Shown here: positions 11,043 through 19,582 of the stretch, in pieces
Position numbering within the stretch: position 1 is the first letter of the stretch
Layout of the letters: every line of letters starts with the position of its first letter
Origin: a virus
DNA: 27,697 nt
Virus record (IMG/VR): IMGVR_UViG_3300002144_000395
Span: 1 to 27,697 of that record
Direction: 5' to 3' (one strand)
Translations under genes and position numbers: made by a program
Notes under the pieces: model-generated
The model's database searches: none
Seen by the model: only the letters and a program-made list of their open reading frames with translations
What the model was told of the DNA's origin: nothing

Positions 11043-12240
11043 AAGCCTTTAATGTAAAATTCTTTTTTTGTTCAACTACTTTTAAAATATTGTAATCTAA
11101 TGTATTTTTAGCAAGTATAAAATATACTTCTGTTTCTTTTCGTTCTTTTATCGTTAACCTATCTAATGACTGTACAAAGTTTGTGCCACTAAAACCAAAG
11201 TTAAGATAAATAAGTTTATCTGCTTTACTTAAATTAACACCCATTGCTGAACTATATTGTTGTCCTATAAAATGTTTATCAGTTGTGTTAAATTCGTTTA
11301 AATCTGTAGTTGCTTTATCTTTAAAAATATCTAATAACATTTCTAACTCTTGTTTAAAATAATAAAATATAGCTAACTTGCCATTAAAGTTTTCTTTTAT
11401 GTAAATAGCTTTTGAGTTGTCAATAATTCCAGTATTACCACTATCAAAAATAATTGTACCACTTCCTAACTGATGCTGTTTACTCATTAATTTTACTGCT
11501 GAATCTGCTAAAATAGTTTCATTTTTACCTTGTATAACTTTGTCTTTTTTTAGTTGGTTTATTAGTTTGTATGTTATCGGCTTCATATCTATAAAAATAT
11601 TTTTCTTTACAATAACATTTTCAAAACCTGCTTCTTCTTGCGTAAATTTATGTAATACCTTTTCAATACGTTTTGAAATTAAATCATTTTTAGCATTAGA
11701 ATAATCATTGCTTTGTCCGTATGCTGTATAAATTAATTTAGGAATAACATAATCTTTAGCATATTTGTAGAAATTTGTATATTCTTTAAACGGACTATTT
11801 TTAGAAATCCAAAATTGATGATACCATTGTGAATAAGATTCACTTGCTGGAGTTCCTGACAAATAAACTATTTTAGTATTAAAGAATAATTCTTTTAATA
11901 ATTTAGTTCTTTTACTTGGTTTTGGAAAAGCACCAATCGAGTGTGCTTCATCTAATATGCATAAATCGTATTTATCTTTAACCTTATGCAACGATTCATA
12001 ATTTACTACTACTAACTCATAATTAAAATTAAAGTCCTTAAAATCGCTTAAAATCGAGTCAATCGCTTTTTTCTTTGTAATAAAAATAACTTTAGTTGCT
12101 TTTATATTTTCTGCTATTTGTAGAGCGGTTAATGTTTTGCCTGTTCGTTGAGTATGTTGTAAATAAACTATCCCGTTTTTAGTTAAAATTTCGGTACATT
12201 CATTTGCATTTTTTATCTGATAATCTCGTAACTCCTTCAT
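11023..12240 (-). CDS. SF2 (SNF2/DEAD-like) DNA helicase
   Basis: 405 aa. Motif Q-like start RDYQIKNANECTEIL, Walker A QRTGKTL (about 31-37), motif Ia region KVIFITKKKAI (50-60), DEAH box LDEAHS (96-101), motif III YLSGTPAS (126-133), and a motif VI-like stretch FVQSLDRLTIKER near the C-terminus. The second RecA domain is present but motif VI deviates from Q-x-x-G-R-x-x-R. It fits the helicases paired with VRR-NUC nucleases in phage replication modules. The 4-bp overlap with the upstream HNH-like gene and 20-bp overlap with the nuclease show a tight replication operon. Confidence 0.85.
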   Translation of the reverse strand: MKELRDYQIKNANECTEILTKNGIVYLQHTQRTGKTLTALQIAENIKATKVIFITKKKAIDSILSDFKDFNFNYELVVVNYESLHKVKDKYDLCILDEAHSIGAFPKPSKRTKLLKELFFNTKIVYLSGTPASESYSQWYHQFWISKNSPFKEYTNFYKYAKDYVIPKLIYTAYGQSNDYSNAKNDLISKRIEKVLHKFTQEEAGFENVIVKKNIFIDMKPITYKLINQLKKDKVIQGKNETILADSAVKLMSKQHQLGSGTIIFDSGNTGIIDNSKAIYIKENFNGKLAIFYYFKQELEMLLDIFKDKATTDLNEFNTTDKHFIGQQYSSAMGVNLSKADKLIYLNFGFSGTNFVQSLDRLTIKERKETEVYFILAKNTLDYNILKVVEQKKNFTLKAYERISN

Positions 12241-12869
12241 AATTTTTCTCTTTTTTTAGACCTATTAGCGTTTATTGAAGTAAATCTTAAGGTAGTGTTT
12301 TCATTGTGAAATTTAATAAAATAAGCTCTTAAATCTTTATTATTAAAATATCTTTTTGTTTCGTGTTGGAAAACATATTTATATAAATCATTATAAGTTT
12401 TATTATATTTTTTCAAAAACAATTCTACTATAACTGCAAAATCGTGATTATGGTGGTCTACATCGTAAAAGTTATTTTTCAAAATTACTCCTGTGATTGC
12501 ACATTTTGTAACATTAGGGATAAAAGTTTTTTTAAATTCTTGTATCTCCTCAAGGATAGTACTTCTAAAAGCTTTTAAAACCTCAATTTTTTGCAAATCC
12601 TTTACATTTTTCTTTATACTAAACAAATACGATATTGCTATTTTATTATTGTCGTCATCTAAAATATAAAAACAATGATTTTTATTTCCCCAAGTTTGGT
12701 TTTTTGAATAAATATAACCATTAAAACCATTAGATATTTTTTCCTCAAAATCAGGATGGTTTTTTAAATAAGAATGTATTTTATTAAATGTTTCGCAATA
12801 AAAATATAATTTGTCTTTTTCTATTGTTTCTTTAAACACTTGTAGCTCTTTTAATGTCATTTCTTTCAT
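12237..12869 (-). CDS. HNH-like protein of DUF3223/DCL type (candidate endonuclease)
   Basis: 210 aa. The first 115 residues are charged and helical. The C-terminal half has KCAITGVILKNN (122-133), DVDHHNHDFAVIVELFL (136-152), FHNENTTLRFTS (187-198) and NANRSKK (200-206). The C-x-x-T-G...D-H-H...F-H-x-x-N...L-R...N-x-x-R pattern resembles the DUF3223/DCL family, which has an HNH-type core; H139/H140 and N200/N202 would be the active-site candidates. Whether it cuts DNA is not shown. It is the first gene after the putative origin and overlaps the helicase ATG by 4 bp. Confidence 0.6.
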   Translation of the reverse strand: MKEMTLKELQVFKETIEKDKLYFYCETFNKIHSYLKNHPDFEEKISNGFNGYIYSKNQTWGNKNHCFYILDDDNNKIAISYLFSIKKNVKDLQKIEVLKAFRSTILEEIQEFKKTFIPNVTKCAITGVILKNNFYDVDHHNHDFAVIVELFLKKYNKTYNDLYKYVFQHETKRYFNNKDLRAYFIKFHNENTTLRFTSINANRSKKREKL

Positions 12870-13158
12870 TTTTATTATTTTTTATAGGTGTAACATAGTG
12901 TAACATTTTAGTGTAACCTTTTTTAGGCAAATGTTACACCTGTTTTTCAATGTTTATAGTACTTCGCAAGGTTTTTTAGGTGTAACGGTTACACTTGGTA
13001 AATTTTTTTTTATTTTTTTTATTTTTTTTATTTTTAATTATAGGTGTAACATAGGTTACACGTTACACCTATTTCCTTCCTTAAGCCTTATAAACATTGA
13101 TTTTTAGGTGTAACATCGTAGTGTAACCTACTGTAACCTTTTTTTAAAAAATGTTACA
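12870..13158. repeat. Candidate replication origin with 12 GTGTAAC iterons and an A/T-tract
   Basis: This non-coding stretch holds the heptamer GTGTAAC or its complement twelve times. Plus orientation: 12888, 12898, 12911, 12980, 13044, 13108, 13121. Inverted (GTTACAC): 12933, 12988, 13055, 13062, 13153. One variant, CTGTAAC, lies at 13131. Seven of these form GGTGTAAC or GTTACACC. Two copies make the perfect 15-bp palindrome GTGTAACGGTTACAC (12980-12994). Between 13001 and 13042 lies a run of T-tracts with 9-bp spacing, expected to be bent and easily melted. Iterons beside an AT-rich stretch, directly after the PrimPol-ATPase-HTH gene, are the classic layout of a theta-type origin. An operator cluster for the downstream HNH gene is the alternative. 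Confidence 0.65.
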
Positions 13159-15408
13159 CTATTTGCCTTCAATCTGTTTTAAAAGTCTATTTACTTGCTG
13201 TCTACTGATTCCTAAAATTTCAGCAGTTTGACTTCTATTAAAATCAGGATTTTCTTCATAAATCAATTTTAACTTTTCTAAATTATTTTTACCACCTTTA
13301 GTAGTTGATTTTATATTTGAAACCTCAACAGAATTTACTTTTACTTTTTTAGCAGTAGCTATAAAGTATTTACTTAATTTTTCCGCTTTTAAGACACTAT
13401 CTTTTGTAATTAGTAAAGTATTACCACCTGTGCTAAAAAATTCATTAAAAGCGTGTATTACTAAAGCAAAACGAGGAATATAAGATTTTTGCTTTGGGTA
13501 CATTGATTTTAAATATTCGTTTTCATTCTCATCGTTTTGAAAATTAGAAATTTCATTAAATATACGCTTCCATTCAATTTTAGCTTCTTCATTAAATTTA
13601 GCTGTTAGACTTTCAATATTACCTTCTTTATCACGTTGTATAACTGATTTAATAGTATCATAAAAACATATCATATTATCTTTATACCATTCAAGTAATT
13701 CATACTCTAATTCATTTTCATTATACAATTCTATTTTGGAATCAGGAAAACTTAAAAGCATCCTATCCATAAATCCGTTGTCTTTATTTTCTTCTGTATA
13801 AAATGAATTTAATATATTTGGTTGAATACCACCAAGAACAGGAATAAAAGGTTTTTCAACAAAAGAACCTTTTCGAGTTAAACGATTTAAAGAAACTGAT
13901 TTACCGCTCCAACAAGATAGCCAAAATTCTAAATCAGAACCTGCTCTGTATTTATTCATATCTTTTAACCAACCTGCAAGTTCATCTTTAAAAACTCCTA
14001 CTGCGTTATCACTTTCTTGATGCAAATCAACTAAAGCCTCTAAAGTAATATCATTAGCTATAAATTGCTTTTTAATTGGCTTTTGAACTTCTATACTTTC
14101 TTCTTTTTCTTTTTTGCTTAAATTATCGTAATACTCGAATTTATCAAGTTCTTTATAATAGTTTTTAATTTCTCTACTATTTACTTTTTGCAAAGGAAAA
14201 ATAACATTGTTTATACTTGGTGTTTTACCTATACCAGCTTTACCAACTAAAGAAATCCAAAGTGTAGCGTTTTCATTCCAACCTCTTTTAACTTCTATTT
14301 CAATAGCATTACCAATGCTAACAGAAATTAACCAAAGTAAAGAGCAACCCATATAATCAATATTAGAATCTAATTTAGAATTACATTCTAAAATATAACT
14401 TTGTATTGGCTCTGGAAATATATCAATAGGAAAAACTAAATCAGTTTTATTGTATTTAAAATCTTCAATTAATTTATCTGTATTAGGCAAAGAAATAGTT
14501 TCTTTTAAAATTCTTTTAACTCTACTACCAAAACCTTCTTTGTATAATGCTTTTGTACTTTCAGAAAAATCTCCTCTATGATATTTTATTGTGTATGCTA
14601 AAAAAGGAGTTATAAGTTTTTCATGTGGATAATTAGTGCCTGTGCTAAATAGATACATAAAACCTGTATCTTTAAAAATATAACCACTATGTACAGAAGA
14701 TGCTCCATGTCTTTTAATAACGATATGTTTTTTATTATTTGAAACAATAGAAAACTCATCGCAAATAATATCCCAAATATTTGTGTTATCGTTATAATCT
14801 TGCCAAGGTGTAATTTCTCCAACTTCAAAAGATACGCTTTCTTTTTTAGGAATATCAATCGGAGTTTCTTCAACGTAATTATACATTTTAGCTGAACTTA
14901 AAAGAATTTCTCTATCTTCTTCTGTAATTTCTTGAATTTTAGAATAACTATCTAATTTTGAAATAAAGTTTTCATAAATTATAACCATTCCACCTATACC
15001 TCGAGTTTCAAAAATAGCTTCTGTATGTCCTTTTAATCTTGCAAGTTTTTTGTTTCCTTCTATTTTTTTGCATCTATATAAAATATGATACCCATTTTTT
15101 TGAGTTTTAGCAATTACAAATTTATCGTCAAAATCATAAATATTATCTTTTATAAAATTTATAAATTCATCCCAAAATTCTTTTTGTTCTCTTGCACTTG
15201 GTAAAACTTTTAAATCAATATCTAAAACTTCAACATCATTTACACCAGTTACTAAACCATAAAGAGGAGCTTCTAATTTTTCTACTTCTTCAATACTTCT
15301 TGCTTGTTCTTGATATTTTTTCCATTGACCAATAGGTACTTTTAACTCTGAACAAGGTATAATTGAATAACCATTTTGAGCTAATAATTTTAATTTGTTT
15401 TTATCCAT
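13159..15408 (-). CDS. PrimPol-DUF3987-type replication protein with C-terminal HTH (primase/helicase initiator)
   Basis: 749 aa, probably a single-polypeptide replication protein. N-terminal PrimPol-like domain (about 10-170): VPIGQWKKYQ, GLVTGVNDVEVLDIDLK with D63 and D65 as metal ligands, and H108 in KNGYHILYR. Middle ATPase domain of DUF3987/D5-like type: Walker A GKAGIGKT (389-396), Walker B-like VFKDELAGWL (D475/E476), followed by sensor-like stretches. C-terminus: helix-turn-helix NRSQTAEILGISRQQVNRLLKQI (about 722-744). Such fusions synthesise primers and unwind DNA. The iteron cluster begins at its 3' end, so the HTH may bind the iterons (inference). Expressed from the promoter at 15521 through a structured leader. 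Confidence 0.82.
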   Translation of the reverse strand: MDKNKLKLLAQNGYSIIPCSELKVPIGQWKKYQEQARSIEEVEKLEAPLYGLVTGVNDVEVLDIDLKVLPSAREQKEFWDEFINFIKDNIYDFDDKFVIAKTQKNGYHILYRCKKIEGNKKLARLKGHTEAIFETRGIGGMVIIYENFISKLDSYSKIQEITEEDREILLSSAKMYNYVEETPIDIPKKESVSFEVGEITPWQDYNDNTNIWDIICDEFSIVSNNKKHIVIKRHGASSVHSGYIFKDTGFMYLFSTGTNYPHEKLITPFLAYTIKYHRGDFSESTKALYKEGFGSRVKRILKETISLPNTDKLIEDFKYNKTDLVFPIDIFPEPIQSYILECNSKLDSNIDYMGCSLLWLISVSIGNAIEIEVKRGWNENATLWISLVGKAGIGKTPSINNVIFPLQKVNSREIKNYYKELDKFEYYDNLSKKEKEESIEVQKPIKKQFIANDITLEALVDLHQESDNAVGVFKDELAGWLKDMNKYRAGSDLEFWLSCWSGKSVSLNRLTRKGSFVEKPFIPVLGGIQPNILNSFYTEENKDNGFMDRMLLSFPDSKIELYNENELEYELLEWYKDNMICFYDTIKSVIQRDKEGNIESLTAKFNEEAKIEWKRIFNEISNFQNDENENEYLKSMYPKQKSYIPRFALVIHAFNEFFSTGGNTLLITKDSVLKAEKLSKYFIATAKKVKVNSVEVSNIKSTTKGGKNNLEKLKLIYEENPDFNRSQTAEILGISRQQVNRLLKQIEGK

Positions 15409-15516
15409 AATATTATTTAAAAGAGAAAACCCCTAAATGTGCATCACTACATTTAAGGGTTTCTCGGTTACGTTAAAAAATTAACGTTAAACTTTCCTTG
15501 TCGGTGATGCTTCGAC
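15409..15516 (-). promoter_or_regulatory. Structured 5' leader of the PrimPol gene with predicted kissing loops
   Basis: Read on the minus strand. Hairpin 1 (15516-15500): stem GUCG/CGAC with a 9-nt loop AAGCAUCAC, at the predicted 5' end of the RNA. Hairpin 2 (15487-15470): ACGUUAA/UUAACGU with a 4-nt loop. Hairpin 3 (15465-15423): a 16-bp stem with one bulge and one mismatch, loop AGUGAUGC. The loops of 1 and 3 are complementary over 7 nt (GCAUCAC/GUGAUGC). Hairpin 3 ends 14 nt before the ATG, so it can control translation or RNA stability. The same plan occurs at 19445-19549. Confidence 0.65.
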
Positions 15517-16912: not shown

Positions 16913-16930
16913 AATTTTGATTTTTAAAGT

Positions 16931-16961
16931 TATGCAAATATAACGTTTTTTTGTTAATTAA
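16931..16961 (-). promoter_or_regulatory. Phage promoter, copy 1 of a 31-bp near-identical repeat
   Basis: The minus strand has TTAATTAAC, an A7 run and TTATATTTGCATA. The -7 box TATATTTG is at 16935-16942. 30 of 31 bases match the promoter at 19552-19582. Transcription would start near 16930 for the 149-aa, ERF and SSB-like genes. The conserved TTAATTAAC lies near -33 in place of TTG. Confidence 0.65.
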
Positions 16962-17061: not shown

Positions 17062-18075
17062 TTAAAAAAGTGTTTCTTGTTTTACACTTTCTTTAAATCT
17101 TTTGTTTGCTTCTTCTAAATTTAATTTAGCTTGTTTAAAGTAACTATCTTTTAACTCGATACCGATAGCTTTACGTCCCATTGAAACAGGGCTAAAAACA
17201 TCACTACCTACACCCATAAAAGGACTAAAAACAACTTCATCAGGATTTGAATATAAATCTACTAATCTATCTAAAACATCTAACTGAGTAGGTGTTACGT
17301 GTTTTTCGTCATCATCTTCTTTGCTATCGTGATAAGATATTACATTACCCTCTCTTACGTCATCCCAAACACTCGATGCGTAACGTTGCCAAATGTAATG
17401 ATTCAATTTAGTTATTTTACCATCTTCTTTAGTTTTCAATAAGTGTTCCCACATTTCATCAGCTGTAAAATCCGTTTTGTTAGTATTGTTATAAGCTCTT
17501 AACATATTTGGCAAAATAGGTATTTCACCAGCATAATGAGTTAAACCAAATGGATGAACTACAGGTACTTTGTTTTCTCCTTTTTTCTTAAATATTAAAA
17601 TATAATCAGGATTTGCTGTAAAACATTTTGTACTATCTTCTACTATGAATTTATGCATTAAAGATTGTACCATAGTTCTTATTCTTACTTTTAATGGCTC
17701 TTTCCAAACTGTTATTTTATTTTTATATTCAAAACCATATTTTTTATGAAGTTTAATTATTTCATTTGGAAAATCTGAAAGCGTACCACTAACATCACAA
17801 ATATCAGTAATATGTATCGCATTAATACGCCCTTTTTTAGTAACCCTACTCATTTCTTTTACTAAAAATTCGTATTGCTGTAAAAATTCTGGAATATCTG
17901 AAACATTGCTCATATCTCTTTCAGAACTTGAATAAGTATATAAATTTGCAAAAGGAGGTGAATATATTGCTAAATCAATACTTTCATTATCTAAAGTTGG
18001 TAAAACCTCCATACAATCACTATTATAGATTGCGTAACGGTCTGTAACGATTTGGTCTTTTACTTTGTTTTCCAT
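17062..18075 (-). CDS. DNA methyltransferase, N4-cytosine/N6-adenine, beta-type motif order
   Basis: 337 aa. Catalytic motif IV SPPF (39-42) comes first and the SAM-binding motif FSPFMGVGSDVF (283-294) near the C-terminus, with ELKDSYF (307-313) after it. This order (IV before X and I) is the beta class of amino-methyltransferases. HVTPTQLDVLDRLV (about 259-273) fits motif X. SPPF allows N4 or N6 methylation. No restriction enzyme gene is adjacent, so an orphan methylase protecting phage DNA or regulating it is likely. It starts 1 bp after the SNF2 helicase gene ends and shares its transcript. Confidence 0.85.
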   Translation of the reverse strand: MENKVKDQIVTDRYAIYNSDCMEVLPTLDNESIDLAIYSPPFANLYTYSSSERDMSNVSDIPEFLQQYEFLVKEMSRVTKKGRINAIHITDICDVSGTLSDFPNEIIKLHKKYGFEYKNKITVWKEPLKVRIRTMVQSLMHKFIVEDSTKCFTANPDYILIFKKKGENKVPVVHPFGLTHYAGEIPILPNMLRAYNNTNKTDFTADEMWEHLLKTKEDGKITKLNHYIWQRYASSVWDDVREGNVISYHDSKEDDDEKHVTPTQLDVLDRLVDLYSNPDEVVFSPFMGVGSDVFSPVSMGRKAIGIELKDSYFKQAKLNLEEANKRFKESVKQETLF

Positions 18076-18076
18076 G

Positions 18077-19444
18077 TTATAAAAAGTTTGGTTTAATTAA
18101 TTCTTTGTTAAATTCTTTTACTTTATTTTCAAAACTACGATTAACATTTTCAGTTAAATTTTTATGTAGCTGTATTGCTTTTTTTGTTTTTTGTTCCAAT
18201 GCTTCTAAAACCCTTGTTTGTCCGTCTGAAATTACCATATCAATAGTAACATCATTTTTTTGTCCGAATCTCCAAAAACGTCTTATTGCTTGGTAGTATT
18301 GTTCATAGCTCCACGTTGGAAAAAATACGGAATGATTACAATGTTGCCAGTTTAAACCCATTGAAGTCATTTTTGCCTTTGTTATTAGCCTTTCAATTTC
18401 TCCATTTGCAAAAGCTAAAAGTATTTCTTCTTTTTTATCAATACTTTGACTTCCTATAATTTCAACAGCTTTTGAATCTGAACTTTTTAAAATGCTACTT
18501 TCATTATTTGTGTTACACCAATAAACCGAAGTTTTACCACTTGCCAACTCGATAGCTTTTTCACATCGTTTTTCTTCTGTTTGCTTTTGTTCGTGTCTTA
18601 CTTCTGTCATTGACTTTGCAATAGGTGTAAACATTTGTATTTGTCCGTCAACATCTATTAAACTTTGATTTTCTATAATATGCTTATTTGTTATTAATTT
18701 TGGCAAATTATAACGCTCATTACTAAAACCTAAATCGCTAGGCATCTTTGCCATAATTGACCATTGATTAACCCACGCAAAGAAATCCTTTTCGGCATGA
18801 GGTTTTAAATAAAACTTTTCCCCTATATTATGTCTTCCACCTGTATCGTTTTGGTTATTCTTAAAAAACTTACCTAACATATCCATATAACCCATATAAC
18901 CTAAAGCCTCGCTACTTGTACCCAATTCTATAAAATCGTTTGGACTTGGTGTTGCTGTGCTTAAAAATCTATAAGGTATTTTTTTAACAAAACTTGTAAC
19001 TTCTTGTTTGATTTTTCCGTCAAAGTTTTTTAAAATAGAACTCTCATCTAAAATTACAGCCTCGAAATCATTTTCATTAAAATAATGTAAACGCTCGTAA
19101 TTACAAATAATAATTTTTTTAGTATGTTTTCCGTCTTTTGAATATTCAACATCTTCGATACCTAACTTTTCAGCTTCTAAAACAAATTGAAAAGCAACCG
19201 CTAAAGGTGTTAATATTAATACTTTTTTATTTGTGTGATTCACTATATTTTTTGCAATAGATAACTGAACTAAAGTTTTACCTAAACCAGTGTCTAAAAA
19301 TACAGCTACACGACCTTTTTCAACAGCTTTTTCAATAACGTGTTTTTGAAAGTCAAAAGCTATGTCAGGAATGTAATTTGCTTTAAAACCAAAGTTCCCT
19401 ATTGAGTGCCTTTTTGATTCTAAAAATTTTTCGTAATCTGTCAT
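18077..19444 (-). CDS. SNF2-family helicase/ATPase
   Basis: 455 aa from ATG 19444 (MTDYEKFLESKRHSIG); an in-frame upstream start at 19480 lies inside the leader hairpin and is rejected. Motifs: DFQKHVIEKA (31-40), Walker A DTGLGKT (51-57), Ia LILTPLAV (76-83), DESS box ILDESS (131-136) in place of DEAH, motif III STATPSPNDF (162-171), and motif VI QAIRRFWRFGQ late in the protein. A related SNF2 helicase followed by a methyltransferase is a recurrent phage pair. It may track DNA for the methylase or act in replication; this is inference. Expressed from 19556 through a structured leader. Confidence 0.85.
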   Translation of the reverse strand: MTDYEKFLESKRHSIGNFGFKANYIPDIAFDFQKHVIEKAVEKGRVAVFLDTGLGKTLVQLSIAKNIVNHTNKKVLILTPLAVAFQFVLEAEKLGIEDVEYSKDGKHTKKIIICNYERLHYFNENDFEAVILDESSILKNFDGKIKQEVTSFVKKIPYRFLSTATPSPNDFIELGTSSEALGYMGYMDMLGKFFKNNQNDTGGRHNIGEKFYLKPHAEKDFFAWVNQWSIMAKMPSDLGFSNERYNLPKLITNKHIIENQSLIDVDGQIQMFTPIAKSMTEVRHEQKQTEEKRCEKAIELASGKTSVYWCNTNNESSILKSSDSKAVEIIGSQSIDKKEEILLAFANGEIERLITKAKMTSMGLNWQHCNHSVFFPTWSYEQYYQAIRRFWRFGQKNDVTIDMVISDGQTRVLEALEQKTKKAIQLHKNLTENVNRSFENKVKEFNKELIKPNFL

Positions 19445-19549
19445 AATATTTAAAATAAAAATGCCTATCTGTATTTGCATCGGCTTCGACCTCGATACTC
19501 CTACAAATAGGCTAATGTTTTAAAGTTACTAATTTGTCGAAGCGTAACT
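19445..19549 (-). promoter_or_regulatory. Structured 5' leader of the SNF2 helicase gene with predicted kissing loops
   Basis: Read on the minus strand. Hairpin 1 (19549-19524): stem AGUUAC/GUAACU, 14-nt loop holding GCUUCGAC (19543-19536), at the predicted 5' end. Hairpin 2 (19512-19463): outer stem GCCUAU/AUAGGC, a 3-bp GUA/UAC inner helix, and an inner stem AUCG/CGAU with a 10-nt loop holding GUCGAAGC (19490-19483). The two loops are complementary over 8 nt. Hairpin 2 ends 18 nt before the ATG. The plan matches the PrimPol leader but the loop sequences differ. Confidence 0.65.
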
Positions 19550-19551
19550 GT

Positions 19552-19582
19552 TATGCAAATATAATGTTTTTTTGTTAATTAA
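19552..19582 (-). promoter_or_regulatory. Phage promoter, copy 2 of a 31-bp near-identical repeat
   Basis: The -7 box TATATTTG on the minus strand is at 19556-19563, preceded by an A7 run and TTAATTAAC. One base differs from 16931-16961. The stop codon of the preceding 41-aa gene (19575-19577) lies inside it. The predicted transcript start near 19551 is just before leader hairpin 1. Confidence 0.65.

Follow-up and report, generated by a model that had tools for sequence, protein, structure and literature searches.

A putative kissing-loop leader RNA with a terminator-like hairpin at replication genes in viruses of Flavobacterium-like bacteria

The locus analysed here raises the question of whether two hairpins lying between a small ORF and a helicase gene form one leader RNA, in which the loop of the first hairpin pairs with the loop of the second, and what such pairing would do to the gene that follows. 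The sequence is a whole virus record of 27.7 kb (IMGVR_UViG_3300002144_000395, 27,697 nt, hereafter the window) with hattifnatt9-1 and snusmum, phages of Flavobacterium, among its relatives, and all features described below are on its minus strand. The −7 promoter box TATATTTG (19556-19563) follows the Bacteroidetes sigma-A sequence TAnnTTTG, and from the consensus position (PMC9723704) the RNA of this helicase leader (leader B) is expected to start near 19551. Hairpin 1 (H1; AGUUAC-GCUUCGACAAAUUA-GUAACU, 19524-19549) begins at about +3 of the transcript and has a 6-bp stem, which covaries among homologous leaders, and a 14-nt loop. The loop carries the kissing segment GCUUCGAC (19536-19543), the exact 8-nt complement of the segment GUCGAAGC (19483-19490) in hairpin 2, and this complementarity is found class-wide. 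An 11-nt linker (UUAAAACAUUA, 19513-19523), A/U-rich as linkers are throughout the class, leads to the terminator-like hairpin 2 (H2, 19463-19512), which is also found in relatives and reads GCCUAUUUGUA-GGA-GUAUCG-AGGUCGAAGC-CGAUGC-AAA-UACAGAUAGGC, that is, a basal stem of 11 bp with one mismatch, a GGA/AAA internal loop and an apical stem whose pairing partly overlaps the kissing segment. The U-rich tract AUUUUUAUUUUA (19451-19462), a feature of the class, lies 3′ of H2, and AUUUUUAUUUU separates H2 from the ATG at 19444-19442 by exactly 18 nt. Reading of the minus strand thus bore out the two hairpins, the 8-nt complement and the spacing given in the preliminary description. That description lacked the terminator-like nature of H2 with its U tract, the location of H1 at the extreme 5′ end and the occurrence of a class of such leaders before 31 gene clusters. 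Single-sequence folding of leader B is unremarkable (z −1.4) because ordinary folding cannot score the kissing pair, and since it is blind to kissing, comparative tests have to decide the question of chance.

Pfam identifies the genes behind leader B as an SNF2/DEAD-type helicase (18077-19444) and, downstream of it in the same unit, an N6_N4 DNA methylase (17062-18075), so the leader does precede a helicase-methylase pair as had been proposed. The longest helicase ORF starts at an in-frame ATG (19480) within H2, and the deposited start of the hattifnatt9-1 helicase (MN812207, 9441) likewise falls within H2. The true start is probably 36 nt downstream of the H2-internal ATG, at 19444, where the N-termini of homologues agree. 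It may be noted that a 33-nt promoter repeat, 97% identical (16929-16961 and 19550-19582), flanks the leader-helicase-methylase module, and that the filifjonk and mumin phages, from which the module is absent, have a single promoter copy at the corresponding place; this suggests that the module was gained or lost via recombination between promoter copies. Separately, the helicase of OP947161 (L002), labelled a Rhodobacteraceae phage, is 80% identical to the Flavobacterium-phage protein of the window, and its host label may be worth checking.

The window holds another leader of this kind (leader A), which is real and shows the same kissing plan before a Prim-Pol/DUF3987 gene (ATG 15408-15406; Prim-Pol protein identified by Pfam). 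Its H1 (GUCG-AAGCAUCAC-CGAC, 15500-15516), recovered both in the whole-locus scan and in the scan without a tail criterion, carries the kissing segment GCAUCAC (15504-15510), and its H2 (15423-15465; fold z −2.9; found in relatives) has the loop GUGAUGC and is followed by UUUU. The two leaders have their architecture in common and not their sequence, and their loops have changed yet still pair (GCAUCAC/GUGAUGC in A vs GCUUCGAC/GUCGAAGC in B), both as described earlier. In detail leader A differs, its linker containing one more hairpin and its H2 being without internal loop. Prim-Pol-type leaders, leader A included, generally combine an H2 that is an almost perfect stem with this additional linker hairpin, and in the subtype (L101, L102, L108, L110, L144 and window 15465-15500) a ACCGAGAA-like stretch is common at the base of H2. 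That one control is common to both replication transcripts is a conjecture. The loop-2 8-mer of leader B, GTCGAAGC (19483-19490), recurs in H1 of leader A (15509-15516), with 3 matches in the window on both strands against 0.13 expected; pairing in trans between the two leaders through the shared GUCGAAGC was set aside, as relatives such as L101 do not have it in leader A. Elsewhere in the window, repeated and inverted GGTGTAACAT-like elements at 12842-13159, in the gap before the gene at 12237-12869, are possibly operators or replication iterons.

The helicase leaders of hattifnatt9-1 and snusmum are nearly identical to that of the window, and distant relatives were needed because close ones give conservation without covariation. 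About 300 loci were therefore assembled from helicase homologues in IMG/VR and bacterial genomes and with Prim-Pol and two other downstream proteins as further queries. A handful of protein queries gathered these loci and some are near-duplicates, for which counts of unique loop pairs and a set of 85 mutually dissimilar leaders compensate. Upstream of the helicase the full plan was present in 21 of 98 relatives compared with 1 of 980 dinucleotide shuffles, and in many relatives without it the helicase lies closely behind another gene, with no space for a leader. The scan of whole loci gave 93 matches as opposed to 10 in shuffled sequence, while the scan anchored on TAnnTTTG (7,978 sites) gave 222 as opposed to 9 after shuffling of the downstream sequence, or 183 as opposed to 4 if a kiss of at least 7 nt is demanded. 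For an unselected test, 183 sites were picked solely for having the promoter, a hairpin after it and then a hairpin with a U tail, kissing not being a criterion. Exact loop-loop complementarity of at least 6 nt was found at 109 of them, with 78 different loop sequences, whereas swapping loop 2 among the sites gave a mean of 6.2 and a maximum of 16 over 200 permutations. We regard this permutation test, a comparison of sequences, as the main evidence that loop-loop pairing is under selection.

The preliminary description took the two differing loop pairs of one genome as covariation. Two examples within a genome are thin for this purpose, and it is the relatives that uphold the idea, through their variety of loop sequences and through compensatory double changes; relatives lacking covariation, which were to count against it, are not what we found. 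In L199 and L212, whose leaders are 91% identical, the loop pairs GCGUCUCAC/GUGAGACGC and GCUUCUGAC/GUCAGAAGC differ by two independent compensated changes, and the cultured phages FCV-1, snusmum9-1 and hattifnatt9-1 also show compensated loop changes. We aligned 12 leaders, mostly before genes of HNH-endonuclease type, with MAFFT (alignment A5) and scored them against a fixed structure including the kissing helix. Both sides have changed in 17 of the 22 pairs and 85.6% of the cells are paired; none of 500 shuffles reaches any of the measures, and pairing falls to 31-51% when partners are slid. A covariance model built from this alignment without the kissing helix recovered the FCV-1 leader (E 0.0018), and its matches up to E 1 were all on the expected strand (15 of 15), with 0 in host contigs. 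Another MAFFT alignment (A6), of 19 leaders belonging to different types, misplaced the loops and was left out of the results.

In 124 leaders of the class the median distance from TAnnTTTG to the start of H1 is 5 nt. As this box occupies −12 to −5 in F. psychrophilum (PMC9723704), H1 begins at about +1 to +3. The H1 stem in these leaders is mostly 4-6 bp with a loop most often of 8 nt, the kissing segment is 7-9 nt, and the median length of the A/U-rich linker is 17 nt. H2 is about 46 nt and often has a purine-rich internal loop (GGA/RAA, UGAA/GGA, UGAY/UGAY or sarcin-ricin-like AGUA/GAA). No loop sequence is conserved across the class, and no near-invariant position was seen beside the kissing segments. 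In the scan without a tail criterion, the first positions 3′ of H2 are 51-75% T (58-75% at most of them), then about 30% where A dominates. This T-rich start followed by an A-rich region looks like the signature of an intrinsic terminator, for which the sequences also offer, downstream of the promoter and ahead of the gene, a G+C-containing hairpin with an immediate U tract.

Among complete isolate genomes, hattifnatt9-1 has three leaders, FCV-1 two, and filifjonk9-1 and phage 11b one each; none of them lies within the structural-gene block, and all are near replication and recombination genes. The downstream proteins form 31 clusters, in a census biased by the queries, including helicases, HNH nucleases, Prim-Pol, DnaD-like and ParB-like proteins and many small unknowns; the names were assigned by eye and only some were tested by profile. 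A phage has up to three leaders, each with its own loop pair and none shared within one genome. No excess avoidance of cross-pairing between leaders of a genome was seen: of 40 cross pairs, 2 attain 6 nt, as frequently as random pairs do. Also, three phages have one kissing pair, CGGGCAGG/CCUGCCCG, in common, with hairpins that are alike: phage 11b (L333) at 33620, L055 at 7146 and L142 at 215. It precedes the helicase in L055 and a different gene in 11b, which looks as though leaders were modules passed from gene to gene. No match was found at 235 promoter-like sites of host contigs (two MAGs, 173 kb), and no leader in phi38:1 (50 kb) or Bacteroides phage B40-8; crAss001 (50 kb) gave one unconvincing match inside a gene. 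By these sequence comparisons the leaders appear to be a widespread RNA class at DNA-replication genes in viruses of Flavobacterium-like bacteria, so far undescribed. A full-text literature search, whose coverage is without preprints and with few subscription papers and so does not prove absence, returned no description of such phage leaders.

From the structure, its covariation, the 5′-end position and the U tract we infer, with a probability of about 0.58, that the leader is a kissing-loop transcription attenuator in which kissing opposes the terminator H2. The promoter would start the RNA at or just before H1, which would fold first and display its loop of 7-9 nt, and the loop of H2 would pair with it as H2 emerges from transcription. 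H2 with its U tract would be an intrinsic terminator between promoter and gene, and kissing may hinder its full closure, as in guanidine-IV, so that the polymerase reads into the gene. Expression could then be set by whatever condition of phage or host disrupts or strengthens the kissing. The calculated energies (mean of −18 kcal/mol for H2, −1.6 for H1 and about −10 for the loop duplex) fit this direction, because a strong H2 presumably needs no help in terminating. The loop sequences can drift freely because complementarity alone matters, and as every leader of a phage has its own loop pair, each would act on itself.

How kissing would oppose H2 was considered further. A classical antiterminator, in which upstream sequence pairs exclusively with the 5′ arm of the terminator, is not what we found, as this arm is not sequestered by the upstream sequence (pairing 0.38 vs 0.45 with shuffled upstream sequence), and the switch must therefore be steric or kinetic. 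Melting of H1 by an upstream ribosome was not supported either, since the median distance between the end of the upstream stop codon and H1 is 32 nt and the two do not overlap. A steric version through linker strain is possible. In the helicase leader the 11-nt linker could span roughly 72 Å against 95 Å for a collinear kissing complex with closed terminator, a rough estimate that fits strain with a long H2. Many other leaders carry longer linkers, and the linker is shorter than the collinear span in 29% of the short-linker leaders only, so linker strain probably does not apply to the class as a whole. Linker length and H2 arm length are negatively correlated, partly from the way the stem boundary is defined. 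We further hold as a tentative idea, one we would sooner doubt than assert, that such gates, free of ligand and of fixed sequence, make up a phage regulon in which private loop pairs override their own terminators as independent cis switches. If true, a single genome would hold several such switches, all built to the same mechanical design and each working in cis independently of the others.

Other readings of the same structure have to be weighed. The kissing complex may be a stability element that hides the 5′ end from 5′-dependent decay, the U tract then being only an A/U-rich translation start. A start of H1 at about 3 nt or less from the transcript start in most leaders would suit this, as would loops free of conserved sequence, which is expected of a purely structural role; but the U tract abuts H2 directly and past it A, not T, dominates, and among genes that have the promoter and no leader, TTTT ahead of the ATG is half as frequent, in a comparison where the leader set is partly tail-selected. 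We consider this reading unlikely. Kissing may instead stabilise the terminator, giving a gate that is off by default and is opened by a phage factor that unpairs the loops or modifies the polymerase. Kissing and the terminator stem use separate nucleotides and could coexist on paper, and 71% of the short-linker leaders have the linker length for both. H2 is however already strong by itself, and in the nearest tested precedent, guanidine-IV, kissing gives read-through and not termination, which makes such a gate quite improbable. Control of translation, with H2 governing access to a start codon 12-25 nt downstream and kissing as modulator, would agree with a first ATG at a median of 16.5 nt past H2, yet H2 stops short of the start codon and leaves it uncovered, and behind H2 there is a U tract instead of the usual A-rich stretch; we give this reading little credence. 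That the loops pair by chance in an A/T-rich genome, for which the ordinary folding score of leader B could be cited, is refuted by the permutation test and is excluded as well by the helicase relatives, the compensated changes, the covariation of homologues and the promoter-anchored scan, and its likelihood is negligible.

The attenuator reading may be compared with known systems. Rfam gave no match at gathering scores, the best hits at E ≤ 10 being unrelated and far below the cut-off. The closest known plan is that of the guanidine-IV riboswitch, a direct precedent. In guanidine-IV (GGAM-1 or mepA motif) and its variant Gd4v, a 5′ hairpin kisses a 3′ terminator hairpin (PMC7736828, PMC9788692, PMC11611296), and it has been suggested that kissing pulls the linker taut, which prevents formation of the outermost terminator pairs (PMC7736828, PMC11611296). 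Guanidine-IV also lies upstream of unrelated genes. The phage leaders share with it a 5′ hairpin and a terminator-like hairpin joined by loop-loop pairing, but the loop nucleotides making up the ligand pocket are about 97% conserved in guanidine-IV (PMC7736828) as opposed to 78 loop sequences in the phage leaders, which are not filed under guanidine-IV because this defining pocket is absent. They differ further by a longer kissing helix (7-9 bp), an H1 fixed at the transcript start and replication genes downstream. The put RNA of phage HK022 is likewise a structure of phage nascent RNA that governs termination without a dedicated protein, and it binds RNA polymerase and suppresses pausing and termination (PMC9378689). 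In the phage leaders, unlike put, it is the partner hairpin that resembles a terminator, and no conserved sequence for binding polymerase was seen. In the attenuators of pT181-type plasmids, whether transcription terminates depends on loop-loop pairing close to the 5′ end. There the loop pairs with an antisense RNA, a molecule of its own, whereas in the phage leaders both loops lie within one leader. A likeness is that the loops can be exchanged for orthogonal versions. Synthetic derivatives of the pT181 type are available (PMC3753616). Covariation in a tertiary contact is unusually clean in the phage leaders. They provide one kissing-terminator design in scores of natural versions that all differ from each other, and may serve as ready-made orthogonal switches for Bacteroidetes genetics. 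With them the question raised by guanidine-IV, of how loop-loop pairing outside the terminator stem alters termination, becomes directly testable.
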